Assembly (NCBI GenBank): GCA_022446905.1 | Contig: JAKVBT010000005.1 | Span: 738,451-802,450 of the forward strand | DNA from: Phycisphaerales bacterium | GTDB lineage: Bacteria > Planctomycetota > Phycisphaerae > Phycisphaerales > SM1A02 | DNA length: 64,000 bases | Direction of reading: 5' to 3' | Part shown: one piece after another, positions 61,832 to 64,000 of the stretch | Position numbering within the stretch: the stretch's first letter is position 1 | How the letters are laid out: every line of letters begins with the position of its first letter | The notes under the pieces: model-generated | Database searches by the model: none | Told to the model about the DNA's origin: nothing | What the model saw: the letters and a program-made list of their open reading frames with translations, nothing else | Program-made: the position numbers and the translations under genes

Positions 61832-61850
61832 CTGGCGTTGGATCAGCGCC

Positions 61851-63356
61851 CTACTTGGACAGACCTTGATGAGCCACTTGATCAAGTGGAATCGAGGCCG
61901 TGTATTCAAGACCTTCACTTTGCATTTCCAAAGACACTGTGCCCATGAGTTCGTGAGGAACAACCGCCCGAAGTACCTGCAAGCCAAATCCACCTGCAAG
62001 GCTCTCTGGCTTGTCCCCCTCATGTGATTCACGCCAGTGCAGGTCAAACAATGGCGCATCATCGACCTCAACAGTCCAGGTGACCTGCAATGTGCCCTCA
62101 TGAGCCAATGCCCCATGCTTGCTTGCATTGGTTGCCAACTCGTTTAACACCATCGCCAGGGTCATTGCTGCCTTGGGCGACACCCTGCACAAAGGACCGT
62201 CAATGGTCACTACCTCTGTGTCAAGAAGGGCGTAGGGTGATAAGCACACACGCACTAATTCATTGAAATCAATGCCCGTTGCTCGCTCGCGACTAAGCAG
62301 TTCATGAACTGCCGAGAAACTCATCACCCGCGCAGAGAGCGAGGCCACTACTTCCTGGTCGACCGTGGCATTTCCTTCTGCCTGGCGGCAAAGCACGACA
62401 ATTTGAGCCAGCATGTTTTTGACACGGTGATCGAGTTCACGATTGAGAAGTTTTTCTTGTTTGGCTGCTTCATCGATGGCTGCACGCTGCGCATGCTCAT
62501 TGGTCAAATCACGCAGAGTGGCTGTGAAATACTTTTGATCGGCGTATTCAAATGGAATCACCGCCAATGCCACTGGAAACTCCGAGCCATCCGATCGCAT
62601 TCCTTGAATTTCAAGCCGCTGGCGCAGGATGGGGCCTTCACCGGTCTTGCGAAAGTGTTCCATGCCAGCTAAGTGCTGCGCCCGCAGCGATGGTGGAATG
62701 ATGAGTTCTGACAACTCCCGCCCAATGGCATACTCACGCTCGTACCCAAACATCACAGCGGCCACATCATTAAATTCGACAACCTTGCCCGCAAGATCAA
62801 TGGTGATCATCGCATCAAGGGCACTATCAAGAATCGATTTCAATCGACCCTTGGATTCCTGTTGACGGTGACTGCTGTCCTCAGCTTCCTGAATCGCCAC
62901 ATCGCGCGCCTGCAATGCAAAGAGCAGATCTGGCAGTGGATCGTGCAGCGAGAAGTCCTGAATCGCCAACCCAGCCTTGCCCAATTCTGCCTGTGAGCGA
63001 ATCAGCGGGGTCGCTTCAAAGATGCACCGCTGCTGATCCTTGGATTCCATGATGGTGCCACGCAGGGGCACAGCCAATCCTTCCACCTCAACGACTAGCA
63101 GCCGGCTAGCAATGGCAACAAGATCCTCATAAGAGGTGATCTGCTGGGCAGGTCGCAGCATCTTGAAATGATCAGCAAAGCAACTCCCGGCCTTGATCTC
63201 GGGCAGATGCCGGGCAAAGCTGTGCCCAAGATGTTCGATTCTGAGATCCTGGCCGACCACGACACACCACGGCAACAAATCGCCGAGATCACTCAGTGAT
63301 AAGGCCTGACCTTCAGGATCAGCTGACATGGAATTTCGACGAGTCTGCCCCGTCAT
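61851..63356 (-). CDS. Sensor histidine kinase: HNOBA-PAS-HWE/HisKA_2
   Basis: Up to 501 residues (ATG 63329 gives 492). Residues about 25-155 fit the HNOBA domain that accompanies H-NOX proteins (SCFADHFKMLRPAQQITSYEDL, VPLRGTIM, LHDPLPDLLFALQARD). A short coiled coil follows, then a PAS domain (about 172-285), then the kinase: phospho-accepting His310 in RELDHRVKNMLAQI, N-box NELATNASKHGAL around 405-417 and the W-x-E motif (HWRE) at 440-443. This is an HWE/HisKA_2-type kinase of the cytoplasm with no membrane segment. It overlaps the upstream small H-NOX-like gene and is divergent from a response regulator. Confidence 0.85.
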   Translation of the reverse strand: MTGQTRRNSMSADPEGQALSLSDLGDLLPWCVVVGQDLRIEHLGHSFARHLPEIKAGSCFADHFKMLRPAQQITSYEDLVAIASRLLVVEVEGLAVPLRGTIMESKDQQRCIFEATPLIRSQAELGKAGLAIQDFSLHDPLPDLLFALQARDVAIQEAEDSSHRQQESKGRLKSILDSALDAMITIDLAGKVVEFNDVAAVMFGYEREYAIGRELSELIIPPSLRAQHLAGMEHFRKTGEGPILRQRLEIQGMRSDGSEFPVALAVIPFEYADQKYFTATLRDLTNEHAQRAAIDEAAKQEKLLNRELDHRVKNMLAQIVVLCRQAEGNATVDQEVVASLSARVMSFSAVHELLSRERATGIDFNELVRVCLSPYALLDTEVVTIDGPLCRVSPKAAMTLAMVLNELATNASKHGALAHEGTLQVTWTVEVDDAPLFDLHWRESHEGDKPESLAGGFGLQVLRAVVPHELMGTVSLEMQSEGLEYTASIPLDQVAHQGLSK

Positions 63357-63648
63357 CCTTGGATGTCAACTGCTTCACATCGACTGCAACTTTGAAACGC
63401 TTTCCAAGACCACGAAGCAAACCGATGAGGAGATCATCCAAACCTGGTCGATCGGAGCGGTAGTGCAACACCAGATTCTGATCTTTGATGTCTTCGCATG
63501 AGAACTCCGGGGGATTGAGATCTGGATACATCATGCGAAGAAGGTGCTCATCACCAACCTGAGCCTTGGCAAGGATGGATTCCCACTGCTGCTGGCCGAA
63601 TTGGTTGGTGACAAGATCGCGAATCGCGATATTGATCAATCCATACAT
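63319..63648 (-). CDS. Miniature H-NOX-like protein lacking the haem-pocket core
   Basis: 109 residues from the ATG of MYGLINIAIRDLV, the usual H-NOX start (two upstream ATGs at 63657-63660 are possible). Residues 1-31 match the H-NOX N-terminus (QQQWESILAKA), then the sequence jumps to the C-terminal half: MMYPDLNPPEFSCEDIKD, the haem-propionate motif YxSxR (Tyr63, Ser65, Arg67), and LLIGLLRGLGKRFKVAVDVKQL. Full H-NOX proteins have about 180-190 residues with the proximal His near 102-105. About 70 residues are missing in frame; a lone His35 lies in GDEHLLRMM but one residue off the expected place. Stop overlaps the kinase start. Confidence 0.8.
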   Translation of the reverse strand: MYGLINIAIRDLVTNQFGQQQWESILAKAQVGDEHLLRMMYPDLNPPEFSCEDIKDQNLVLHYRSDRPGLDDLLIGLLRGLGKRFKVAVDVKQLTSKDDGADSSKFHVS

Positions 63649-63730
63649 TGCCGCCATCATAGTCCATGGCCCACTGCCTCCCGGCATCGGCTACCCTGAA
63701 GAGGTCAATTCTGAAGGCGACGCGCTCATT

Positions 63731-64000
63731 ATGGCCAGTACAACCCCAGCCATCCTCACGGTCGAAGATGCATTTCTAGTTGGTCTTCAACTAAAGCGTG
63801 ATCTCGAAGCACTTGGCTTTGAAGTAGTTGGCCCAGCAGCCACCGTAGCTGAGGCCATGGAACTGCTTGATCATCCCGGGCTTGCTCTGGGCGTGCTTGA
63901 CATCAACTTGGGCGCCGAGGATTCCATTCCAATTGCGCAAGCCCTCCGCGATCGGAACATTCCGCTGCTATTTATCAGCGGCTACGACTCCGTCGCACGC
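63731..64000 (+). CDS. Response regulator receiver (cut by window edge)
   Basis: The first 90 residues of a receiver domain: acidic pair in ILTVEDAFLVGLQLK, the phospho-accepting Asp in LGVLDINLGAEDS and a Ser/Thr in LLFISGYDS. The end lies beyond the window, so output domain, if any, is unknown; single-domain receivers are common partners of HWE kinases. It starts 83 bases from the H-NOX-like start and runs divergently, forming a probable signalling module with it and the kinase. Confidence 0.88.
   Translation, partial: MASTTPAILTVEDAFLVGLQLKRDLEALGFEVVGPAATVAEAMELLDHPGLALGVLDINLGAEDSIPIAQALRDRNIPLLFISGYDSVAR

Follow-up and report, generated by a model that had tools for sequence, protein, structure and literature searches.

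A core-deleted H-NOX gene, probably eroding, beside a retained HNOBA histidine kinase in a marine planctomycete

The 109-residue protein encoded on the minus strand at 63319-63648 of the window (the whole 64,000-nucleotide stretch of DNA that was analysed, from a Phycisphaerales bacterium) is an H-NOX without its haem-binding core (MYGLIN...FHVS*), found in a marine planctomycete. It is probably a non-haem, eroding H-NOX beside a kinase that has been retained but no longer perceives NO, and the comparisons below suggest that a sensor of known type, shortened by deletion, is decaying, and not that a novel type of sensor has arisen. The first-pass annotation had described the open reading frame, its coordinates and length, the H-NOX identity, the YxSxR motif and the missing core correctly, as translation, Pfam matching and alignment confirm, and it rightly recognized an H-NOX derivative without a haem core beside an HNOBA kinase. 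The nearest homologue, L022, lies on contig JAKVBU010000016.1, the contig of L068, in a genome from another genus (G100). The features of the window are as follows.

61834-64000, no strand: window portion of an approximately 5.1-kb block shared with L022, continuing to about 66915 (DNA identity 87-89%)
61851-63329, minus strand: HNOBA-PAS-HWE histidine kinase, from its likely start (Pfam; overlap kept in relatives; dN/dS 0.17)
62193-62438, minus strand: HWE_HK phospho-acceptor domain of the kinase (PF07536, E 7.6e-19)
63084-63302, minus strand: best HNOBA stretch of the kinase (PF07701, E 2.2e-18)
63319-63648, minus strand: core-deleted H-NOX of 109 aa (open reading frame, translation, PF07700)
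63322-63531, minus strand: C-terminal part kept, residues 40-109, comprising the beta-sheet and last helix (PF07700 positions 106-162; AlphaFold2 pLDDT)
63448-63462, minus strand: YxSxR motif, Y63-R-S65-D-R67 (translation and alignment)
63531-63536, minus strand: deletion junction M39/M40 within GCATGA (alignment; sequence compared with L022)
63532-63648, minus strand: N-terminal helices kept, residues 1-39 (alignment; model helices 2-17, 19-29 and 33-40; dN/dS 0.22 against L022)
63731-64000, plus strand: divergent single-domain response regulator, extending beyond the end of the window (PF00072; dN/dS 0.07 against L022)

Membership of the H-NOX family is supported by a PF07700 match with an E-value of 9.4e-22 and a score of 78.1 bits against a cut-off of 25.5, in which residues 36-92 of the protein align to profile positions 106-162. 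Alignment with full-length relatives shows that 39 N-terminal residues (not the approximately 31 first annotated) and 70 C-terminal residues are kept, and that alignment columns 40-109 are missing. Relative to full-length congeners, this is an in-frame loss of 69-70 codons that takes in the proximal-His helix; in the congener L008, 207 nucleotides (69 codons, one shared Met counted) separate the two matched pieces. The proximal His of helix F is absent from the alignment, and the YxSxR haem-propionate motif is intact. At its 3' end, the gene is two codons shorter than that of L022 owing to a change of TGG to TGA, and this early stop removes a C-terminal Trp that is kept in nine of nine full-length relatives compared.

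The breakpoint follows Met39, between 63531 and 63532, inside a GCATGA microhomology; alignment with full-length congeners thus moves the junction from the vicinity of 63555-63565, where it had been placed. L022 possesses GCATGA as a six-base direct repeat at both sites matching the ends of the deletion, whereas the window junction has a single copy, which is the pattern expected of deletion by slippage or recombination. The sequence DEHLLRM had been taken for the proximal-His position, with the His replaced by Glu or shifted by one. Because L022 reads DDEHFLRMKAGDD at the corresponding place, DEHLLRM is ordinary N-terminal sequence, aligning with DDEHFLRM in L022 and DESAFIRM in the congeners, all within the N-terminal part. 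The His of DEHLL as a shifted ligand and the Glu replacement are both ruled out by this alignment; the proximal His is gone outright, and the idea of an altered ligand was built on a misalignment. An altered-ligand or redox H-NOX, binding haem through H35 or using a zinc-Cys site as in the haem-free H-NOX of Vibrio cholerae, is very improbable. A His is present at residue 35 and haem-free, redox-active H-NOX proteins are known (PMC7108781; PMC12329717), but H35 is N-terminal rather than proximal and the helices of the haem pocket are gone. The zinc-redox mode requires three Cys plus His/Gln (PMC7108781), and is ruled out for this protein by its single Cys.

It is unlikely that the true gene is full length and that the deletion reflects an error of assembly or sequencing, or belongs to a minor variant. 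The genome resembles a fragmented draft of 79 contigs, and the H-NOX copies of congeners are full length, but the gene sits inside an 808-kb contig, and a 6-bp junction repeat would probably be too short by itself to mislead an assembler. A search of the rest of the assembly for the deleted core segment found nothing, though no positive control from this genome accompanied it, and the sister cassette of L022, which was assembled independently, likewise has an internal H-NOX deletion.

Complete H-NOX proteins of 181 residues with the proximal-His segment (LHTRV) intact are present in five of the eight congeners searched (G002, G004, G006, G007 and G008). In another congener, G001, the H-NOX continues past the deletion point and ends with its contig after residue 51; G003 and G005 gave no match. 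H-NOX matches were found in 97 of 181 genomes of the family, nearly all of them full length, and in 42 of 392 genomes of a phylum-wide sample, where this loss of the core occurs only in the window genome. That the protein represents a miniature class under selection, or senses some other signal, is not supported; the first-pass annotation had itself named as evidence against its reading a unique deletion among full-length close relatives, which is largely what the congeners display. No second core-less H-NOX of approximately 110 residues was seen in the 181 family genomes or the 392 of the phylum-wide sample, viral contigs yielded no relatives, and literature searches on planctomycete or pseudogene H-NOX proteins brought up nothing on a core-deleted form of this sort. 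The closest homologue argues further against such a class, as its own in-frame deletion is a different one and its C-terminal part is decaying. In these samples the core-less form is a single instance rather than one conserved across several species under purifying selection, and the sole close comparison gives a C-terminal dN/dS of 0.88.

Erosion of H-NOX genes recurs in the family, since broken copies are found in four other genomes. That of G069 (L072 6319-6756) lacks about 47 residues around YxSxR but keeps the proximal-His segment, and no HNOBA kinase was seen adjoining it. Two H-NOX relatives in G145 (L069 6492-7039 and L070 6021-6495) are each readable in two frames, owing to frameshift or sequencing error, and G070 and G142 possess truncated copies.

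The H-NOX of L022 (6001-6462) has 153 residues and lacks 28 in frame, through an independent deletion whose position differs from that in the window. It keeps the proximal-His segment (LHTRVG), but its YxSxR motif is degraded with loss of the Tyr (PHCRSSR for LHYRSDR), and four of 21 invariant C-terminal residues are lost. The block shared by the two genomes (L084 5285-10366) has sharp ends and contains the H-NOX, HNOBA kinase, response regulator, Ser/Thr protein kinase and isochorismatase-like genes. Its DNA identity of 87-89% is far above the 75.8% of rpoC in the same two genomes, and the rpoC of the window genome groups with its own genus. Because of this excess identity and the sharp ends, the simplest explanation is that the cassette was probably transferred horizontally between genera.

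Between the two cassettes, the C-terminal part of the H-NOX evolves almost neutrally, whereas the kinase and regulator are constrained. The dN/dS values are 0.07 for the response regulator, 0.13 for the Ser/Thr kinase, 0.17 for the isochorismatase-like gene and 0.17 for the histidine kinase; in the H-NOX they are 0.22 for the N-terminal 39 residues and 0.88 for the C-terminal 70. Differences at the three codon positions number 14, 16 and 16 in the C-terminal 70 codons, compared with 85, 53 and 304 in the other compared genes of the block (Fisher p 1.2e-5), and the same region in pairs of full-length H-NOX genes has an ordinary third-position excess. When the side of change was assigned by residue conservation and by relative-rate counts against full-length outgroups, the relative-rate counts put most of the excess change on the L022 side. 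The window protein keeps 20 of 20 aligned invariant C-terminal residues, its codon pattern differs weakly from that of the kinase (8:6 versus 18:37, p 0.12), and over the C-terminal part the identity between it and full-length relatives averages 0.55, compared with 0.43 for L022 and 0.60 among the full-length relatives themselves. By these sequence comparisons, decay of the L022 gene is clear and decay of the window gene is only suggested; the window deletion may be recent, or the remnant may still be weakly constrained.

The invariant residues, together with the exactness of the in-frame deletion and the low dN/dS of the N-terminal 39 residues, would also suit a functional miniature pseudo-H-NOX, in which the beta-subdomain with YxSxR still docks the HNOBA kinase as a constitutive haem-free partner. 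This is possible but not probable. AlphaFold2 models the C-terminal beta-subdomain confidently (with pLDDT about 85-91 beginning at residue 51), and soluble guanylate cyclase (sGC) alpha offers a haem-free precedent (PMC8196705), but confidence in the whole model is low, with a pTM of 0.55 against 0.83 for a full-length congener control with the same sequences in the alignment. The window model has no equivalent of four helices that the full-length model shows at 44-58, 62-89, 93-98 and 100-110, the proximal-His helix among them, so that no complete pocket is present; its top Foldseek matches are the Nostoc H-NOX structures 4iae and 2o09. The loss of the C-terminal Trp, the relaxation that the C-terminal part shows when the two nearest cassettes are compared, and the lack of a second instance in the genomes sampled also count against this explanation. 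It is unlikely, though possible, that N-terminal helices and beta-subdomain together bind the kinase and set its activity independently of haem and NO.

The kinase directly downstream of the H-NOX matches PF07701, PF00989 and PF07536, and thus has both an HNOBA domain and a transmitter; the response regulator matches PF00072 with an E-value of 8.8e-7, slightly below the gathering score. The kinase ATG overlaps the 3' end of the H-NOX gene by 11 nucleotides, lying 8 nucleotides ahead of the H-NOX stop in the window and 14 in full-length copies, and the overlap is also present in the relatives examined. In L025 (6238-7251) and L026 (6238-7239), the same place after a full-length H-NOX gene is occupied by an HNOBA-type kinase that is more distantly related, at about 28-34% identity.

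The eroding, non-haem H-NOX probably arose from an ordinary H-NOX as follows. Four helices of the full-length model, among them the proximal-His helix and with them the haem pocket, were lost in frame, probably through slippage or recombination between GCATGA repeats, leaving a product that is predicted to hold no haem in the manner of an H-NOX and so no longer to report NO. Since the remnant has neither pocket nor zinc site, the kinase would not be controlled by NO, and it and the divergent response regulator, both under purifying selection, probably function without that control. The overlap of the genes suggests that translation of the kinase is perhaps coupled to that of the H-NOX. With the kinase start in the last H-NOX codons, a break in the frame would disturb kinase translation; this is probably why the H-NOX frame has stayed open, and it would explain why the deletions of the window and L022 are both in frame.

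If the remnant still regulates the kinase, the kinase-contact surface of H-NOX would map to a small beta-subdomain, and if it does so as a pseudo-H-NOX, a signalling surface can work apart from its sensor. If it does not, the window offers a natural case of a two-component cassette in which the gas sensor was lost but selection on the kinase and regulator continued, which raises the question of what else the kinase, with its extra PAS domain, responds to.

In most systems studied, NO-bound H-NOX inhibits autophosphorylation of the kinase, as does the oxidised zinc-site H-NOX of Vibrio cholerae and Caulobacter (PMC12329717; PMC7108781). The window gene shares with the full-length bacterial H-NOX genes paired with HNOBA kinases in its congeners (structural relative: Nostoc Alr2278, 2O09/4IAE) the MYGLIN start, the N-terminal helices, YxSxR, the C-terminal beta-sheet and the overlap with the HNOBA kinase; it differs in lacking about 70 central residues, the proximal His among them. 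The pseudo-H-NOX of sGC alpha is likewise related to H-NOX and makes no use of haem, but it keeps an H-NOX-like domain within a dimer, whereas the window protein has no central helices. The haem-free zinc-redox H-NOX proteins of V. cholerae and Caulobacter resemble it in having a histidine kinase partner and in possible signalling without NO and haem, but their fold is complete and their zinc site has Cys ligands, whereas the window protein has a single Cys. The H-NOX of L022 belongs to the same cassette and also has an internal in-frame deletion, but a shorter one that spares the proximal-His segment, and it is the L022 copy that has lost the Tyr of YxSxR.
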